64,000 bases of DNA from Oscillospiraceae bacterium (GTDB lineage: Bacteria; Bacillota; Clostridia; Oscillospirales; Ruminococcaceae). The DNA lies in the NCBI GenBank assembly GCA_017550285.1, contig JAFZPP010000011.1:1-64000 (forward strand). The letters run 5' to 3'. Positions 3,674 through 63,667 of the stretch are shown piece after piece (position 1 is the stretch's first letter; the number at the start of each line of letters is the position of its first letter). The notes under the pieces are model-generated. The model ran no database searches. It was not told the DNA's origin and saw only the letters and a program-made list of their open reading frames with translations. Made by a program: the position numbers and the translations under genes.

Positions 3674-5263
3674 TTACTTTTGTATCAGCATTCGTTTGAG
3701 AAGTGTCAGATCAATGGCATTCAGCTTACCGTCGTTGTTCATGTCACCGGCTCTCCAAATTGTCATTCCAACTGAATCATCGGTTGTCAGCCACTTCACC
3801 AGAAGTTCTGCATCCGCTGCGCTGATCTTTCCGTCTGCATTGATATCGCCTTGTACTGTCTCATCAAGCGAAACAAAAGTATACCCGTTTTCAGCGGCAT
3901 AAAACTGTGCTTCCGTATCAGAATACCCTTTGATGACGCAGTCTTCATCAGCAATCAGAATCTGCTCTGCGGTCAGCGGATCAATCAGCACACCTTTCTG
4001 GATATACGGATTATGTAGCACGCCCACGATTTCAGTGCTTTTCGGAATCGTCAGTTCTCTCAGGGCTGTACCGGAAAAAGCATCCTGCCCTAAATATTTC
4101 AGATTATCCGGCAGCGTCACTTCTTCCAGTTTGGACAGATCTTTAAATGCCCAGCAAGCAATTTCCTCTGCACTGGTGATTACAGCCGACTTTACTTCAG
4201 GACATCGCGGACATACACGTAACCCAATCTTCTTTACATGCAGACTGACGGATTCCAGTTTCGGACAGGACATAAAGAGTCCATCCGAGAGTTCCAGTTC
4301 CGGCGCATAGATTTCCGCTTCCTTTAGATACGGCATATTGACAAAAGTCTGAACATTGGTATAACATTCCGGAATCACCAGTTTCGTAATTCCGGTATCT
4401 GCGAGTCTTGCGGATATACCGGTCACAGTATATCCGTCCAGTTTATCCGGCAATATCACCGGTTCAGTAATCGGCTCCACATCGCTTCCATTCGGCAGCG
4501 TACATCCGATGATCTGCGCCGTTCCGGCGGCATCATCCGTTACGATGTATTCCCAGAACCCGGAAGTATGCACCTCCAAGTTGTGATTCTCAATCCATCG
4601 CTCAGCTTGGATGTCACCGGCATAGAGAATACCTCCGTCTGTTTGTTCTACCCAGTTTCCGAAACAAAAATCTGCAACACGATCCGCTTCTTCCGGATCC
4701 GGCATCTTATCAAATCTGATTTGATAAAATGGACCGCCTGCACCTGCCTGTGCGACCACACGCTCACGCCCGTTATCATCTAGCCAATATTCATCAATCT
4801 CGGATGGCTGACCAAATTCATATGCGGCGTATAAATCATAGTACGCAATATCAGGATAAAAAGGAATGGGGCTATATCCGGTCATATCAGCAAGCAGTTT
4901 CTGATTATCCAGTGAAATGCGTTCCGGCGCAACACCAGTTTTGATCGTCTGCCGCGCATACGGACACAGAAGCAGCTGCGGCGCGCTGCGCTCTGTAAGA
5001 AAGATCGTTCGGCACATAGCTAGCTGTTCCGAAGACAACGCATCCTTATCCGTTACACAAAGACTGTATTTGAGAAATCGATCAAACAGTTCATCATCTG
5101 TTGGCAGCACGGTCTGTTTCTTTGGCAGCTGGTTTTCCAAATAAAGGGAGCGCTGATATTGCATAGCCTCGTCATTCTCAGCATACGCAAATACTGCTTG
5201 CTGAGACATAAAAATGATTGATGCCAGAAGCGAGCTGATTATTGCTAACATTCTTTTTTTCAT
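3674..5263 (-). CDS. Secreted leucine-rich (BspA-like) protein with C-terminal type I dockerin
   Basis: This 529-residue protein has a signal peptide (MKKRMLAIIS, a hydrophobic core, cleavage probably after AYA). The middle part, roughly residues 240-445, carries BspA-like leucine-rich repeats (TVTGISARL, ITKLVIP, LEEVTLPDNLKYLG). The last 58 residues are a dockerin with two F-hand repeats, GDINADGKISAADAELL and GDMNNDGKLNAIDLTLL, which anchor proteins to cohesins on a cellulosome scaffold. The start is ATG 5263, because AAGGTG lies 6 nt upstream; in-frame ATGs at 5269 and 5290 are less well placed. It is convergent with the relaxase and may be cargo of the element or a host gene. Confidence 0.82.
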   Translation of the reverse strand: MKKRMLAIISSLLASIIFMSQQAVFAYAENDEAMQYQRSLYLENQLPKKQTVLPTDDELFDRFLKYSLCVTDKDALSSEQLAMCRTIFLTERSAPQLLLCPYARQTIKTGVAPERISLDNQKLLADMTGYSPIPFYPDIAYYDLYAAYEFGQPSEIDEYWLDDNGRERVVAQAGAGGPFYQIRFDKMPDPEEADRVADFCFGNWVEQTDGGILYAGDIQAERWIENHNLEVHTSGFWEYIVTDDAAGTAQIIGCTLPNGSDVEPITEPVILPDKLDGYTVTGISARLADTGITKLVIPECYTNVQTFVNMPYLKEAEIYAPELELSDGLFMSCPKLESVSLHVKKIGLRVCPRCPEVKSAVITSAEEIACWAFKDLSKLEEVTLPDNLKYLGQDAFSGTALRELTIPKSTEIVGVLHNPYIQKGVLIDPLTAEQILIADEDCVIKGYSDTEAQFYAAENGYTFVSLDETVQGDINADGKISAADAELLVKWLTTDDSVGMTIWRAGDMNNDGKLNAIDLTLLKRMLIQK

Positions 5264-5332
5264 ATCCATCACCTTCAAAGTATAAAGCATACATGAATGT
5301 ATTTCATGGGAACGGTTGAAAAAACATCTGTC

Positions 5333-50837: not shown

Positions 50838-50850
50838 CTTCTTTCAGAAT

Positions 50851-50876
50851 GTAACCGGAACCTCAAAAATCCCGTC
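50851..50876 (+). promoter_or_regulatory. Candidate ECF-type promoter of the sigma factor gene
   Basis: GTAACC (50851-50856), a 16-bp spacer and CGTC (50873-50876) match the general ECF pattern (AAC-containing -35, CGT-containing -10), 26 nt before the start codon, which suggests autoregulation. Confidence 0.55.
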
Positions 50877-50901
50877 CCAGTATATGAGGAGGTGAGATAC
50901 G

Positions 50902-51468
50902 TTGGAACAGCATAAGGATACTGCGGTCATCGCACTGCTGCAGAAGCGCGATGAATCTGCGCTGGAAATGATACGGCAGGCATACGGCAGGCTTTGCGGC
51001 AAGATCGCCCATGATATCCTCGGCAATACGGAGGATACAGAGGAATGCGTCAATGATATGCTGATGAAGGTATGGCAGTCGATCCCGCCGAATCATCCGG
51101 AATGCCTGCGTGCGTATCTCATTACCCTGATCCGGCATCTGGCGATTGAACGCTATCGCATGCAGACGGCGCAGAAACGCGGCGGCACGCAGTTCGATGA
51201 AGCGCTCGAGGAACTGCGTGATACGCTGACATCGGATGAAAATGTCAGCGATGCCGTTGAACGGCGCGAGCTGACATGCGCCATTGAGCGCTTTCTGGAT
51301 ACGCTCTCGCTGAAAGCACGCAGGGTGTTCATGCGGCGGTATTATATGGCGGATTCCGTCTCTGAGATTGCCGCGCAGTATCATATGAGCGAAAGTGCGG
51401 TCAAGATTTCGCTGATGCGGACGCGAAACAGGCTGAACGATTTTCTGAAGAAGGAGGGATTCCTTTGA
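50902..51468 (+). CDS. ECF-type RNA polymerase sigma factor
   Basis: This 188-residue sigma-70 family protein has region 2 at about 22-90 (YGRLCGKIAHDILGNTEDTEE, VWQSIPP) and region 4 at about 130-180 (LSLKARRVFMRRYYMADSVSEIA, SESAVKISLMRTR). The start is TTG 50902, with GAGGAGGTGA about 6 nt upstream. The next gene starts at a TTG overlapping its stop codon, as expected for a coupled anti-sigma factor. Its own ECF-type promoter suggests autoregulation. The target regulon is unknown. Confidence 0.9.
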   Translation: MEQHKDTAVIALLQKRDESALEMIRQAYGRLCGKIAHDILGNTEDTEECVNDMLMKVWQSIPPNHPECLRAYLITLIRHLAIERYRMQTAQKRGGTQFDEALEELRDTLTSDENVSDAVERRELTCAIERFLDTLSLKARRVFMRRYYMADSVSEIAAQYHMSESAVKISLMRTRNRLNDFLKKEGFL

Positions 51469-52700
51469 AACCGATTGATTTTATGGATGCACTCGGCGAT
51501 GTGCAGGAGAAATACGTCCGGCAGATGCTGGATGAGGATGAATCAGCGCACGAAAGCGGGAAGGTCGGCGGCGCCGTTCTGAATACGGCGTTCCCGATCG
51601 AAACAGTTTCCGGCTCGGAAAGCCGCATCCGGCGCTCCGAAACAGGCAGACCGTTCGGCGGAAAGCTGCGCTATGCGGTGCTGCTGGCAAGTACGGCAGC
51701 ATGTCTCGCAGCGGTTGTCGGCATCATGCATCTGCATCAGGACAGCAGTGAAAATATGATTGCCGAGTCGATGCTGCAAGAGCTGCAAATTGAAACCGGA
51801 ACAACAACAGCAACCGAATCTGCGGCAAAAAGTACAACCGCGCAGACGACCGCTTCGACTGCATCTGCGGCAGCAATCGCAGATGCGCAGACGGAAACTG
51901 TCACGACTGCCGGTACAGCGCAGACAGAGCGCAATGCTGCGGCAGAGACGGAAATGCAGACATCCGTCAGCGCGGAAAAGCAGGAGAATGTCAAATCCGG
52001 AACCACAACGACGGTCGTCACGACGACAACAGCAACTGCGGTGACAACGGTTCCGGCAACGACAACCGTATTCATGACAAGAGTCGCTGATCTCATGACA
52101 GATGAGGAGACCGGTATCACAAAATGTACTGTGATCTATGAGCAGCCCTATCTGCTCGGCGATGTGGATGCAGACGGCGCAATCACGCTGCTGGACTATT
52201 TTCTTGCAAGAAGGGCAAATTATCAGCTTGCGAATGAATCCGAGCAGCATATTCTGGATGCCGCAGCATATGACCGTGCCAATCTTTCCCGCACGCTGAT
52301 CAGTAACGATCCGGCTTTTTCCATTTGCTACAGTGAAATTAAGTATCTTGCGCTTTATCGCTCATATCTCGGTAAACCGGACCTGACTTATGCGGATTAC
52401 ATCAGAATGGCTTGCGAATATCCGGAGCTGGAGAATGATGATTATGAGTCAAGCGTCCAGAAGGATATGAAAAAGGTATTCAGGAATCATATGGAAGAGT
52501 ACGGTTCATGGACCGACGAAAATGAAATCGTATCGGAAGCGGTGCCGAAGCCGGTGCGGGATTTTTATAATGATGCACATTACGCTGAACCGTATGACAG
52601 CTCTGAGAACTGGGAATATCATCCGCTGAAACTGGAACAATGGTCAGACGAAGAATTCCGGCAGAAAATAGATGAGCTCCGCACGCTCCTTGCACAATAA
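51465..52700 (+). CDS. Membrane anti-sigma-like protein with extracellular dockerin-like motif
   Basis: This 411-residue protein is coupled to the ECF sigma gene (TTG start overlapping TGA; AAGGAGGG 7 nt upstream). Residues 1-68 should be cytoplasmic and bind the sigma factor, and a membrane helix spans about 69-90. A Thr/Ala/Glu-rich linker runs from about 108 to 205. A dockerin-like calcium-binding repeat (LGDVDADGAITLLDYFLARR, 231-250) follows, with a degenerate second half to about 300, and then a further domain of about 110 residues. There is no ZAS zinc motif. The layout recalls RsgI-type anti-sigma factors that sense polysaccharides outside the cell; the dockerin suggests docking to a scaffold. 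The anti-sigma function is inferred from context. Confidence 0.7.
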   Translation: MKPIDFMDALGDVQEKYVRQMLDEDESAHESGKVGGAVLNTAFPIETVSGSESRIRRSETGRPFGGKLRYAVLLASTAACLAAVVGIMHLHQDSSENMIAESMLQELQIETGTTTATESAAKSTTAQTTASTASAAAIADAQTETVTTAGTAQTERNAAAETEMQTSVSAEKQENVKSGTTTTVVTTTTATAVTTVPATTTVFMTRVADLMTDEETGITKCTVIYEQPYLLGDVDADGAITLLDYFLARRANYQLANESEQHILDAAAYDRANLSRTLISNDPAFSICYSEIKYLALYRSYLGKPDLTYADYIRMACEYPELENDDYESSVQKDMKKVFRNHMEEYGSWTDENEIVSEAVPKPVRDFYNDAHYAEPYDSSENWEYHPLKLEQWSDEEFRQKIDELRTLLAQ

Positions 52701-57255: not shown

Positions 57256-59223
57256 ATGAAGAACGGTGCTCCGCGCAGGCGCATTGCCCTGCTGATATCC
57301 GATCCGGGCGCAGATTATTCCCAGTCGGTGATTACCGGCATACGGGATCAGTGCGCGAAATACAATTATGATCTGCTCGTATTCAGTACCATGGTCAAGG
57401 TTTGTCATCCGGACAAGCCGTATCTTGACGGCGAGCGGAATATCTTTCGCCTGATCAATTATGATCTGGTGGATGCGGTACTGGTGGCGTCGCTTGTGCT
57501 GGTCGAGGATCAGGTGTATGAGGTGCTGGAGCAGCTGGAATCCGATCTGAAACAGCATTGCAGCAAGCCTGTGATTTCGCTGGATCTGCCGCTTGCGGAT
57601 TATCCGGTTGTATATACCGATGACCGGAAGGCGGTCCGGCAGGTCGTGCAGCATCTGGTGCAGGCGCATCAGTGCCGGAGGCTGTATATGCTCACCGGTC
57701 CGAAGGATTATTCGGTTTCTGAGGCGCGTGCGGAGGCATTCTGCGAGCAGATGCGCGCAGAGGGACTGGAAGCATCCGCGGCGCAGATTTTCTACGGCAA
57801 TTTCTGGTATACCGGCGGCGAGGATTTTGCAAACCGGCTGCTCTCGGGCGAAGTGCCCATGCCGGACGCCGTGGTCTGTGCGAATGACTATATGGCAATC
57901 GGACTGGCAAACAGCCTGATTGCGGGCGGCATCGGCGTGCCGGAGCAGGTGCGTGTCACCGGCTATGATGCGACCAAAGATGCAGCCTTCAATTCGGTCA
58001 GTATTACGACCTATAATCCTGATGTATACAGTATGGCTGCGCAGGCAGTCAATCTGGTGCATGCGCAGATTGAGCCGGAGCTGCCGGAAATCAAACCTGA
58101 GCAGCTGCCGCATTACGGCATACAGATCGGTGCGAGCTGCGGCTGTGCGCAGAATGCAGACGATTTGCGCCGGCTGCAAGGCTTCGGTCTCGATCCGAAC
58201 GAGCGCAAGCGCAATCCGGACGGCAGCCTGACGGTCAATGACATGCAGGGGCTTCACGAAAGCTATATGTTTGAGACGCTGTCTGTCATCCGCGACAAGG
58301 AGCAGATTTTGCAGACAATCACCGATGTTTCCTATCTGCTCCAGCCTTACCGGCGGTTTTATCTGGTGCTGCGGCGTGACTGGAGCGATCCGGAAAGCCG
58401 TTGCTTTTCCGGTTATCCGGAGCAGATGCGCTGTGTGATCCGCTGCATTCCGCAGAATGAAGCAGAGAGTGAAGCGGAGAGCCGGTATGCCGTCGATTCG
58501 GAGGAATACAGCTTCCCGACAAAGCAGATGCTCCCTGCGCTGGATGAACCGCGTGAGGAACCGGTTGTCTTCTATTTCCTGCCGTCGCATTTCAGTGACG
58601 ATACAATCGGATATGCCGTGCTGCAAACGTCGATGGATGCGAAGCGCTCTGCGGATGAGGTCTCGACGCTGTGGCTGCGGAATGTGAACAATTCGCTGCA
58701 CATGGTCAGAATCGTCAGCAAGCTGCTGGACTATTCAATCCGCGATTCCATGACCGGACTGCTGAACCGCCGCGGCATGGAGATTGTATATCAGCGCCGC
58801 AGTGAGCAGATGCAGCCGGATGACCGGTTTATCATCTGGATGATTGATATGGACGGACTCAAATATATCAACGATCACTTCGGTCATGAGCACGGCGATG
58901 TCGGACTGATGACGATTGCAGAAGTGATCCGGACAGTTGCCGGAAAGGATGATATTGCGGTGCGGCTCGGCGGCGATGAATTTGTGATGATTGCCGCCGG
59001 AAAGCTGACAGAGCAGGACGGAGAAAAACGGGTTCAGGCGTTTGAGCGGATTCTTGCGGAAAAGAATGCCGGTCAGACGGGCAGACCGTATGATATTTCG
59101 GCGAGCATCGGCTTTGTATGCTATCCGGCATCGGAGAAGGATACGCTTGAGGCGCAGCTGACCGAAGCAGACCGCCGGATGTATCTCTGTAAGATTGCAC
59201 ATAAGAAGCAGCGCAGCAGCTAG
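57256..59223 (+). CDS. LacI-type ligand-binding domain fused to a diguanylate cyclase
   Basis: This 655-residue protein has no signal peptide or membrane helix. Residues about 8-300 form a periplasmic-binding-protein-like domain of the LacI/GalR type (RRRIALLISDPGADYSQSVI, DAVVCANDYMAIGLANSL) without a DNA-binding head. Residues 330-490 are a linker, possibly a GAF-like region. Residues 490-650 are a GGDEF domain with the intact GGDEF site at 572-576 (RLGGDEFVM), so it should synthesise cyclic di-GMP when a small ligand, perhaps a sugar, binds. No EAL domain is present. It has its own promoter and a terminator downstream. Confidence 0.88.
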   Translation: MKNGAPRRRIALLISDPGADYSQSVITGIRDQCAKYNYDLLVFSTMVKVCHPDKPYLDGERNIFRLINYDLVDAVLVASLVLVEDQVYEVLEQLESDLKQHCSKPVISLDLPLADYPVVYTDDRKAVRQVVQHLVQAHQCRRLYMLTGPKDYSVSEARAEAFCEQMRAEGLEASAAQIFYGNFWYTGGEDFANRLLSGEVPMPDAVVCANDYMAIGLANSLIAGGIGVPEQVRVTGYDATKDAAFNSVSITTYNPDVYSMAAQAVNLVHAQIEPELPEIKPEQLPHYGIQIGASCGCAQNADDLRRLQGFGLDPNERKRNPDGSLTVNDMQGLHESYMFETLSVIRDKEQILQTITDVSYLLQPYRRFYLVLRRDWSDPESRCFSGYPEQMRCVIRCIPQNEAESEAESRYAVDSEEYSFPTKQMLPALDEPREEPVVFYFLPSHFSDDTIGYAVLQTSMDAKRSADEVSTLWLRNVNNSLHMVRIVSKLLDYSIRDSMTGLLNRRGMEIVYQRRSEQMQPDDRFIIWMIDMDGLKYINDHFGHEHGDVGLMTIAEVIRTVAGKDDIAVRLGGDEFVMIAAGKLTEQDGEKRVQAFERILAEKNAGQTGRPYDISASIGFVCYPASEKDTLEAQLTEADRRMYLCKIAHKKQRSS

Positions 59224-62120: not shown

Positions 62121-62220
62121 TAGGGCTGAAAGAAAAGTTTGAAAAATCTTTGTGATATTTTCCGGATTCGCGCGTCTGATAAATGAACGGCGAAAAAATC
62201 AGCAGAAGGGAGGCAGCCGA

Positions 62221-62724
62221 ATGGAGGACATCGAAGCGGCATACCGGCAGCATTTCGACGATGTATACCGGTTCCTGCGCGGACTGACCGGCAGCGAATC
62301 GCTGGCGGAGGAGCTGACGCAGGAAACCTTTTTCTCCGCCATGAAGCATATCGGCGATTACCGCGGGGAATCAGAGCTTCGGGTCTGGCTGTGCTCCGTC
62401 GGGCGGAATCTGTACTATTCCTATCTGCGGAAACAGAAGCATATCTCTGCCGATGAGATTCCGGAGGATGCCTGCGCACAGGAAGCCGACCTGACCGAGC
62501 TGATTGCCGATAAAGAGCTCGCCATGCAGATTCACCGGATTCTCCATGAGCTGCATGATCCCTATAAGGAGGTTTTCTCGCTGCGGGTTTTCGGGGAGCT
62601 CTCCTTCCGCGAGATCGGCTCGCTGTTTGAGAAAAATGAACACTGGGCATGCGTGACGTTTCACCGTGCCAAGAAAATGATCCAGATGAAAATGAAAGGA
62701 GCGGATCCGGATGCTGGATTGTGA
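62221..62724 (+). CDS. ECF-type RNA polymerase sigma factor (second)
   Basis: This 167-residue sigma-70 family protein has region 2 at about 10-75 (YRQHFDDVYRFLRGL, EELTQETFFSAMKHI, VWLCSVGRNLYYSYLRKQ) and region 4 at about 108-160 (DPYKEVFSLRVFGELSFREIG). GGGAGG lies 6-7 nt before ATG 62221. The anti-sigma gene starts 14 bp before its end, so the two are coupled. Unlike the first ECF gene, its visible promoter is of the house-keeping type. Confidence 0.9.
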   Translation: MEDIEAAYRQHFDDVYRFLRGLTGSESLAEELTQETFFSAMKHIGDYRGESELRVWLCSVGRNLYYSYLRKQKHISADEIPEDACAQEADLTELIADKELAMQIHRILHELHDPYKEVFSLRVFGELSFREIGSLFEKNEHWACVTFHRAKKMIQMKMKGADPDAGL

Positions 62725-63667
62725 AGTTGTCAAAGACCTGCTGCCGCTGTATACGGAGCAGATGGTCAGCCCGCATACTGAGGCGCTTGTCAGTGCGCAT
62801 TTGCAGAGCTGTCCTGCATGTGCGGCGCTGCACCGTTCCATGACGGAACCGGAACCGGCGGTGCAGTTCAGCACGGACAGCGCACAGCAGTTTGCTGCCT
62901 ATGAGAAAAAGCAGAAGCGCAAAACCGGCTTGAAGGTCGGCACCGTGCTGACCTTCCTGTTCGGCGCTGTCACCGCAGCCGTCGTATGGTTCCTGCGGAA
63001 AGCACTTGTCACCGTTCTGGCGCTGTCCTTCTGCATCCCGCTGCTGATGCTGGATTCTGCACTGGCTCGCGTCAAGGTCGATACCGACCCTGCACATTAT
63101 TCCGATTATATGTTTGATACAGCAAAACCGGAATACCGGCACAAGATCAGCGAAACAGACGAATCCATTTTCCCTGCAAAGCTGACAGACAATATGGACA
63201 TCAGGGAATACAAAATGGTGTACTATAATCCGTGGGACCCGCAGTATCTGAGCTATCTGACGGTACACTATTCGCCGGAGGATTATGAAGCCGAAACGAA
63301 ACGTCTGGCAGAATACGGCTGCGACTTTTATCAGGGCTCCTACGGCGTCACCGGTTTTCCGGGCGGCGAACCGCTTGCCGTTCATGCCGATGCCTACTAC
63401 GGCTATGTCTACGCAATCAATACGCCGAATGCGGAAAGCAACACGATCACCTACTGTGAGATCATCTTCTGCAATTATTTCATGGATCTGAAATATGAAA
63501 AGTATATGCCTGCCGAATATTTCCCGCTGAATTTCAACGCAAAAAGTTCAAACAGAGCAAAGCAGGAGCAATACGGAAAAGCGCACCCCGAAATGGACAG
63601 TCTGGTTCAGAACAATATCGAGCTGGAGAAATGGACAAGGGAAAACTGTCCGGAGTATCTCGAATAA
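62711..63667 (+). CDS. Zinc-finger (ZAS) anti-sigma factor with large extracellular domain
   Basis: This 318-residue protein begins with an anti-sigma domain carrying Cys4 and the Hx3Cx2C zinc motif (His30, Cys34, Cys37; LLPLYTEQMVSPHTEALVSAHL). Two membrane helices lie at about 74-94 and 98-115, and a Tyr-rich domain of about 200 residues follows. This domain is not recognised and should be the sensing part if it faces outside; with two helices it would face the cytoplasm unless one helix is peripheral. The start overlaps the sigma gene. Confidence 0.85.
   Translation: MLDCEVVKDLLPLYTEQMVSPHTEALVSAHLQSCPACAALHRSMTEPEPAVQFSTDSAQQFAAYEKKQKRKTGLKVGTVLTFLFGAVTAAVVWFLRKALVTVLALSFCIPLLMLDSALARVKVDTDPAHYSDYMFDTAKPEYRHKISETDESIFPAKLTDNMDIREYKMVYYNPWDPQYLSYLTVHYSPEDYEAETKRLAEYGCDFYQGSYGVTGFPGGEPLAVHADAYYGYVYAINTPNAESNTITYCEIIFCNYFMDLKYEKYMPAEYFPLNFNAKSSNRAKQEQYGKAHPEMDSLVQNNIELEKWTRENCPEYLE

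Follow-up and report, generated by a model that had tools for sequence, protein, structure and literature searches.

The 64,000-nucleotide stretch of DNA analysed here (the window) is contig 17 of a 3.41-Mb draft genome of a fibre-degrading gut bacterium, and it carries an ECF sigma factor gene followed by the gene for a membrane protein with a single helix, the parts of which are listed in Table 1. Pfam recognised both region 2 (Sigma70_r2, 1.9e-9) and region 4 (Sigma70_r4_2, 1.7e-7) in the sigma factor, whose TGA stop overlaps the TTG start of the membrane protein by 4 nt at position 51465 (TTGA, gap −4). An ECF stop/TTG overlap, a 411-residue protein with one helix, a Thr-rich linker and an F-hand motif had been described in an earlier note on this DNA, and this layout was re-found in the sequence and is accurate. 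The part of the receptor before the helix comprises 70 residues, the motif LGDVDADGAITLLDYFLARR occupies residues 231–250, and about 170 further residues follow the calcium-binding loop at residues 232–244, in which the calcium ligands presumably act as they do in dockerins and EF-hands. The downstream neighbour of the pair is a DUF6323 gene, and no dockerin gene adjoins it. Elsewhere, the window encodes a second, ordinary ECF pair whose anti-sigma factor is of the zf-HC2 (ZAS) kind (62152–63667, + strand) and a protein that joins a LacI-type sugar-binding domain to GGDEF (57256–59223, + strand).

Table 1. Features of the sigma factor/receptor locus in the window.
Feature	Position	Strand	Basis
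ECF-type promoter TGTAACC-N17-GTC, predicted autoregulatory, upstream of the sigma gene	50850..50876	+	Genome pattern scan
ECF sigma factor, 188 aa, TTG start	50902..51468	+	Pfam/NCBIfam; the genome has 29 paralogues (E ≤ 1e-30)
Membrane receptor with one helix (putative anti-sigma factor), 411 aa, TTG start	51465..52700	+	
N-terminal cytoplasmic motif, residues 1–26, putative sigma-binding helix	51465..51542	+	Alignment; divergence tracks sigma
Transmembrane helix, residues 72–90	51678..51734	+	Hydropathy
Thr-rich extracellular linker, residues 93–205	51741..52079	+	29% Thr
Dockerin-like module, residues 223–322: one intact F-hand calcium loop, degenerate second half	52131..52430	+	
Calcium-binding loop G232–D244, GDVDADGAITLLD	52158..52196	+	Loop kept in 15/15 F-hand receptors
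C-terminal extracellular segment, residues 323–411, partly helical in a low-confidence model (mean pLDDT 55.7)	52431..52697	+	

At a membership threshold of E ≤ 1e-30, the genome contains 30 sigma genes of this family. Each of them is followed by a one-helix protein (30/30), the two genes overlapping by 4 nt in 28 of the 30 pairs; two of the partners are cut by contig ends. The same kind of partner is present in all of 40 additional pairs from four other genomes (G016, G002, G006 and G019), which have the sigma factors nearest to that of the window among the matches listed for these genomes, out of 125 there, and are not a random sample. Members of the family share a motif in the first ~20 residues of the receptor that reads, by eye, approximately MKxxDLLDALGDIPEEYIEEA. 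This sigma/receptor family is genus-expanded: all 30 same-genus genomes, including that of the window, carry between 1 and 34 copies, and, outside the genus, 23 of 60 genomes of the same taxonomic family have at least one copy, with a maximum of seven. The earlier note had likened the pair to SigI/RsgI as an ECF/membrane-receptor system, and the 30 paralogous pairs with varied ectodomains bear out this analogy.

No anti-sigma domain scored above cut-off in the window receptor (Pfam and NCBIfam) or in its 29 paralogues (Pfam). Among the 30 receptors, Pfam found PASTA domains in two and DUF4179 below threshold in three, besides five further sub-threshold matches that look chance-like (E up to 0.01). 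According to the accessible part of the source, ECF30 anti-sigma factors, of which RsiV is one, contain DUF4179 (PMC6066255), and its sub-threshold occurrence in 3/30 receptors suggests that the family may descend from the ECF30 group. The two PASTA receptors (L042:3526-4698 and L056:1946-4024) are possibly cell-wall-sensing branches of the family.

Divergence of the sigma factors and of the receptor parts was compared over 85 pairs, comprising the 30 of the window's genome, the 40 from the four other genomes and 15 from a search with the window protein; L081 was excluded because its sigma gene is cut by a contig end. Orthologues among the pairs make these comparisons non-independent. Divergence of the N-terminus followed that of the sigma factor (Spearman 0.45, permutation p 0.003), whereas that of the ectodomain hardly did (Spearman 0.06, p 0.03), and within the window's genome the coefficients were 0.39 and −0.09, respectively. 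Since its divergence tracks the sigma factor, the N-terminus is putatively the sigma-binding part, and the pattern fits sensors that would be evolving independently. From this co-variation and the coupling of the two genes, we infer a putative anti-sigma role for the window receptor.

A comparison of 13 pairs from G016 with 14 from G002, 11 of which had a partner at sigma identity ≥0.91, revealed that the sensing parts may differ even between orthologous pairs. The last 180 receptor residues were related in nine of these 11 (identity 0.43–0.99, partly over short alignments) and stood at the level of unrelated sequences in two, L135/L147 (0.20) and L137/L150 (0.23), where the sigma factors are 97% and 99% identical. 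The DNA flanking the replaced ectodomain of L135/L147 is 94.5% identical upstream and 94.5% downstream, that flanking the replaced part of L137/L150 is 98.7% and 97.5% identical, and at both loci the upstream identity runs up to the linker or the N-terminus. At L137/L150 the sigma factor, the N-terminus and the dockerin that ends the partner are retained and everything between is replaced; identity returns within that C-terminal dockerin, encoded by the next gene, so the ectodomain and the partner body were replaced together. At the level of sequence, ectodomains have been exchanged at some loci, with the sigma factor and the N-terminal motif staying together, although these calls rest on draft genomes and keep a residual chance of misassembly.

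The motif layout upstream of the window's sigma gene is as expected for an autoregulated ECF gene, and the promoter would be used by the family's own sigma factors. The pattern TGT(A/G)ACC-N17-GTC recurs upstream of family sigma genes: TGTRAC-N15-19-GTC was found before 9/30 of them versus at most 1/30 in 200 shuffled sets, and a two-block promoter model scored 412 versus 317–351 in eight shuffled sets. A stricter pattern, T[GA][ATC]AAC-N14-18-CGT[CAT], occurred in only 2/30. The exact form of the motif is post hoc, because it was read off by eye and then tested against the shuffles, and a single hit proves little since the genome-wide scan gave 45 hits versus 24 for a reversed control, a noise level at which the scan yields examples of targets rather than a regulon. 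Inspection of nine regions with nine of the 45 hits yielded one clear new target candidate, the dockerin gene in L122 (849–2723, minus strand), which lies divergently beside the L038 pair with a family promoter 76 nt before the ORF as read. Among the other inspected hits, L125 is a known sigma gene, and the rest lie inside ORFs, are ambiguous or precede an ORF of no evident relevance. A family-like promoter also stands at G000:C45:43286-43312, upstream of a series of short dockerin ORFs (C45:44231-48146) that may form a regulon.

The earlier note had called the extracellular motif dockerin-like and considered a dockerin on an anti-sigma factor. On a sub-sequence of the window receptor, the Pfam Dockerin_1 model scored 14.9 bits (E = 0.031), below the cut-off of 22.9, and the whole protein went unreported; the receptor is absent from the 149 Dockerin_1 (PF00404) matches listed for the genome, for which 150 of 296 candidates were scored, and whole-receptor Pfam and NCBIfam scans gave chance-like matches only. 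With a profile of 20 dockerins from the same genome, picked across the score range, the receptor gave E = 0.001, and the match was confined to F-hand 1; among 370 shuffled sequences (10 × 37 proteins) the best value was 0.11. Consistently, hhalign gave the window's orthologue group a probability of 89.6% and 86.1% against dockerins in two runs, compared with at most 1.1% for 20 column-permuted controls. As the shuffled controls are far weaker, the dockerin match of the window receptor is not due to chance. The segment after F-hand 1 matched dockerins at 0.1–2.2% (hhalign, four groups of F-hand receptors), and the second repeat is thus unrecognised.

A phmmer search of the receptor against PDB chains returned 11 matches at E up to 10. 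The best of them, 8zvk (E 8e-4), is matched at an end that appears, by eye from the alignment, to hold two F-hands; the remaining ten are weak (E 0.09–2.6) and comprise three dockerin chains, two of cellulosomal scaffoldin adaptor protein B, one of xylanase Y, which we take to be a dockerin, two of calmodulin and two of serine protease. AlphaFold models from three-row alignments reached a pLDDT of 55.7 for the ectodomain and 46.9 for the module, and Foldseek and VIA-align gave no real match. The possibility that the receptor is a canonical dockerin protein was rejected, with its score below the Pfam cut-off and only the first F-hand recognisable. Because the profile match covers F-hand 1 and nothing after it, the module is, judged by its sequence, dockerin-derived but non-canonical, with one intact calcium loop and lacking the canonical second repeat. 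What stands of the dockerin claim is a dockerin-type F-hand outside the cell; a full dockerin does not, as the second repeat is unrecognised in all four groups.

The search of related genomes for ECF/dockerin anti-sigma pairs that the earlier note had proposed turned up 15 F-hand receptors, the window's included, selected by a pattern of nine positions from the Gly with the final Asp outside it. Loop 1 and the final Asp are intact in all 15; loop 2, on visual inspection, is degenerate and in most cases contains insertions. The module is shared by orthologues in four other genomes of the genus (L074, a locus also numbered L090; L075; L076; and L077, also L091), and these four, which have the window-type ectodomain, retain the loop; the ectodomain of a fifth orthologue, L078, is unrelated. 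The expectation that homologues would keep the dockerin motif therefore holds for five of the six pairs with sigma identity ≥69% (the window's included) and fails for L078. The set is completed by L050 and L051 from the window's genome, L080, L082 and L083, and L127, L128, L130, L139 and L141; in total, F-hand receptors make up 3/30 pairs in the window's genome and 5/40 of those from the four other genomes. Relative to L074, the module (residues 224–312) is 76% identical at the amino-acid level, and the linker, at 56%, is the least conserved part of the receptor.

Compared with one another by hhalign, the four groups of F-hand receptors match at 95.9% (A–B), 93.3% (B–C), 93.1% (B–D), 71.2% (A–D), 68.2% (A–C) and 67.6% (C–D). 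Against dockerins, three of the groups reach 86–95% and group C reaches 38.8%; L051 is marginal against the dockerin profile (E = 0.35). After F-hand 1, groups A and B match one another at 84%, and neither matches dockerins there. The stretch after the loop varies by group (ITLLDY, ITFVDA, VDVGDV), and as these residues differ, no common cohesin-facing surface is evident. Sigma identity between the groups is only ~38–59% in the sets compared, with the exception of L128/L139 versus L130/L141 (73–75%), which places the F-hand module on several sigma lineages.

Dockerin matches in the genome number at least 149, with 150 of 296 candidates scored, and 19 matches to cohesins were obtained, 16 of them over cut-off. 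In 38 of 82 complete pairs of the family an ORF was identified immediately downstream; 17 of these ORFs (17/82 pairs) matched the dockerin profile, and 15 of the 17 proteins have a signal-like N-terminus by hydropathy. Ten downstream partners were scored with Pfam: five pass the Dockerin_1 cut-off and five fall below it (18.0–21.8 bits). A dockerin lies within 2 kb on the same strand in 20 pairs versus 7 on the opposite strand; in the window's genome alone the figures are 4/28 and 3, a weak signal that makes enrichment unconvincing, and the background dockerin density is uncertain because only 150 of the 296 candidates were scored.

Ectodomain type and partner body co-segregate. The set compared consisted of 19 operons, of which 15 have a whole dockerin-profile match in the partner, two (L050 and L080) a partial match and two (L127 and L083) no match over the part of the ORF that was read, the downstream ORF of L083 being cut by the locus end. 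In 171 non-independent comparisons, similarity was found for both ectodomain and partner body in 10, for the ectodomain only in 4, for the body only in 9 and for neither in 148; at sigma identity <0.75, the corresponding numbers were 7, 3, 9 and 144. The F-hand receptors L127, L139 and L083 have homologous partners (37–70% identity), that of L139 being an LRR protein of the BspA type whose C-terminal dockerin match, at 21.6 bits, falls just under the Pfam cut-off. The window also encodes a BspA-type LRR protein that ends in a dockerin (3674–5290, − strand), with the architecture of the L139 partner.

In five pairs (L137, L163, L088, L050 and L080), the downstream protein resembles the receptor ectodomain. 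Two of these receptors, L050 and L080, directly precede small proteins (151 and 136 aa) that share their type of F-hand, sub-threshold in Pfam, and begin with a signal-like N-terminus. The receptor L038 (L038:1536-2948) shares, in its ectodomain, 38% identity over 284 aa with the C-terminal module of dockerin protein L008, which we take, from sequence motifs read by eye, to be esterase-like and to accompany a GH5-like part, and the ectodomain of L079, in another genome, is 49% identical over 346 aa to dockerin protein L122. The ectodomain of L086 is also homologous to the esterase-like module of L008, and the Ser at the GFSxxG position is, by eye, kept by L038 and lost in L086. The ectodomains of L038 and L086 suggest an enzyme turned sensor; other ectodomains of the family are esterase-like, PASTA or unrecognised. 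Adjacency, co-segregation and homology support a putative tie between the family and the cellulosome.

The pair probably belongs to a Ruminococcus-type, genus-expanded family of transmembrane receptor switches that would work much as SigI/RsgI does, is built on ECF sigma factors and is tied to the cellulosome. The N-terminal motif of the receptor would tether its partner ECF sigma factor to the membrane, and the ectodomain, carried on its Thr-rich stalk, would recognise something extracellular. Ligand binding may then lead to proteolysis, presumably as in RsiV or RsgI, and to release of the sigma factor, which would transcribe its own gene from the TGTAACC-N17-GTC-type promoter (the motif is present, its use predicted) together with target genes. 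By their sequences, the sensing parts are modular and have been exchanged at some loci, the sigma factor and N-terminal motif staying paired, and the sensor of the window member is a one-calcium module derived from a dockerin. Cohesin or another part of the cellulosome is our leading specific guess for the ligand of this module, and cohesin binding by it is plausible.

A reading of the module to which we give slightly less than an even chance is that it has lost cohesin binding and become a domain, stabilised by calcium, that binds a ligand or acts as a spacer; a polysaccharide, a peptide or the secreted partner would then be the signal. The retention of loop 1 in all 15 receptors beside a degenerate loop 2 agrees with such a change of role, as do the match between groups A and B in a region where neither resembles dockerins and the diversity of ectodomains elsewhere in the family; a pure spacer, however, would not need the conservation observed for the module over the linker. 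Docking of the F-hand module into a cohesin, by which the receptor would report free or occupied scaffold as the earlier note proposed, seems doubtful. F-hand 1 looks dockerin-type rather than like a generic EF-hand, its PDB matches being mostly dockerin or cellulosomal and mostly weak, and the high profile probabilities in three of the four groups, the 19 cohesin matches and at least 149 dockerins of the genome and the small signal-like F-hand proteins directly after L050 and L080 would suit docking; but a second F-hand is recognised in no group (at most 2.2%), group C resembles dockerins poorly, and the differing post-loop residues offer no shared surface to a cohesin.

A wider proposal, which we hold to be rather unlikely, is that the cellulosome senses itself, with one-calcium dockerin receptors reading cohesin availability or a co-expressed, dockerin-tagged partner protein, and that the sensing half of the receptor and the partner body swap between strains as a cassette. 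The adjacent dockerin partners and matched cassettes in the family lend circumstantial support to sensing of the cellulosome itself rather than of polysaccharide. It is quite improbable that the membrane protein is a sigma-controlled surface protein or an activator instead of an anti-sigma factor, since the lack of known anti-sigma domains above cut-off in it and its 29 paralogues, which would favour this, is set against strict coupling with a 4-nt overlap in nearly all pairs, an N-terminal motif that co-varies with the sigma factor and sub-threshold DUF4179 in three paralogues.

As a family of ECF-built receptor switches, these pairs look like the missing sensors that tune the cellulose-degrading machinery, and they provide a concrete, testable candidate. 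If ectodomain and secreted partner do move as matched cassettes, they would constitute a natural set of interchangeable sensors for the study of ligand specificity and for engineering. In the accessible part of the open-access literature, neither the present family nor any anti-sigma factor of dockerin type was found to be described.

In the portions of the sources available, the SigI/RsgI systems of Acetivibrio (Clostridium) thermocellum and its relatives are paralogous pairs of cellulosome producers with varied, partly enzyme-derived ectodomains (PMC3413522, PMC6056542), occur in 7–14 copies per genome (PMC11557425) and have a sigma-I with region 2 plus sigma-I-C in place of region 4 (PMC6056542). 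The present family is similar in its many pairs, its cytoplasmic segment followed by a transmembrane helix, its varied and partly enzyme-derived ectodomains and its dockerin- and cohesin-rich genome. It differs in that the window's sigma factor is an ECF with regions 2 and 4 rather than a sigma-I, in its 30 copies in the window's genome versus the 7–14 given in that available text, in the exchange of ectodomains at some loci and in its dockerin-type module. The N-terminal anti-sigma domain of RsgI had no match in the window receptor (Pfam, NCBIfam) and, as the sigma factor has region 4 and this domain was not found, the pair is, on these two counts, not SigI/RsgI.

ECF30/DUF4179 (RsiV) systems, as far as the accessible part of the source describes them, are likewise Firmicute ECF factors with a membrane partner (PMC6066255), and sub-threshold DUF4179 in 3/30 family members is a further likeness; unlike them, the window receptor has no DUF4179, the expansion is genus-specific and the ectodomains are not recognised as RsiV-like. 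With ECF/ZAS (zf-HC2) pairs the family shares the co-encoded sigma factor and partner, but the window receptor is without the zinc-finger anti-sigma domain. The module resembles Dockerin type I (PF00404) in the first F-hand loop, GD.D.DG.I...D, and the stretch that follows, and differs from it in an unrecognisable second repeat with a degenerate loop 2, in its place on a membrane receptor and in a score below the Pfam cut-off. We therefore file the pair as a variant of ECF/anti-sigma signalling, apart from both SigI/RsgI and canonical dockerins.
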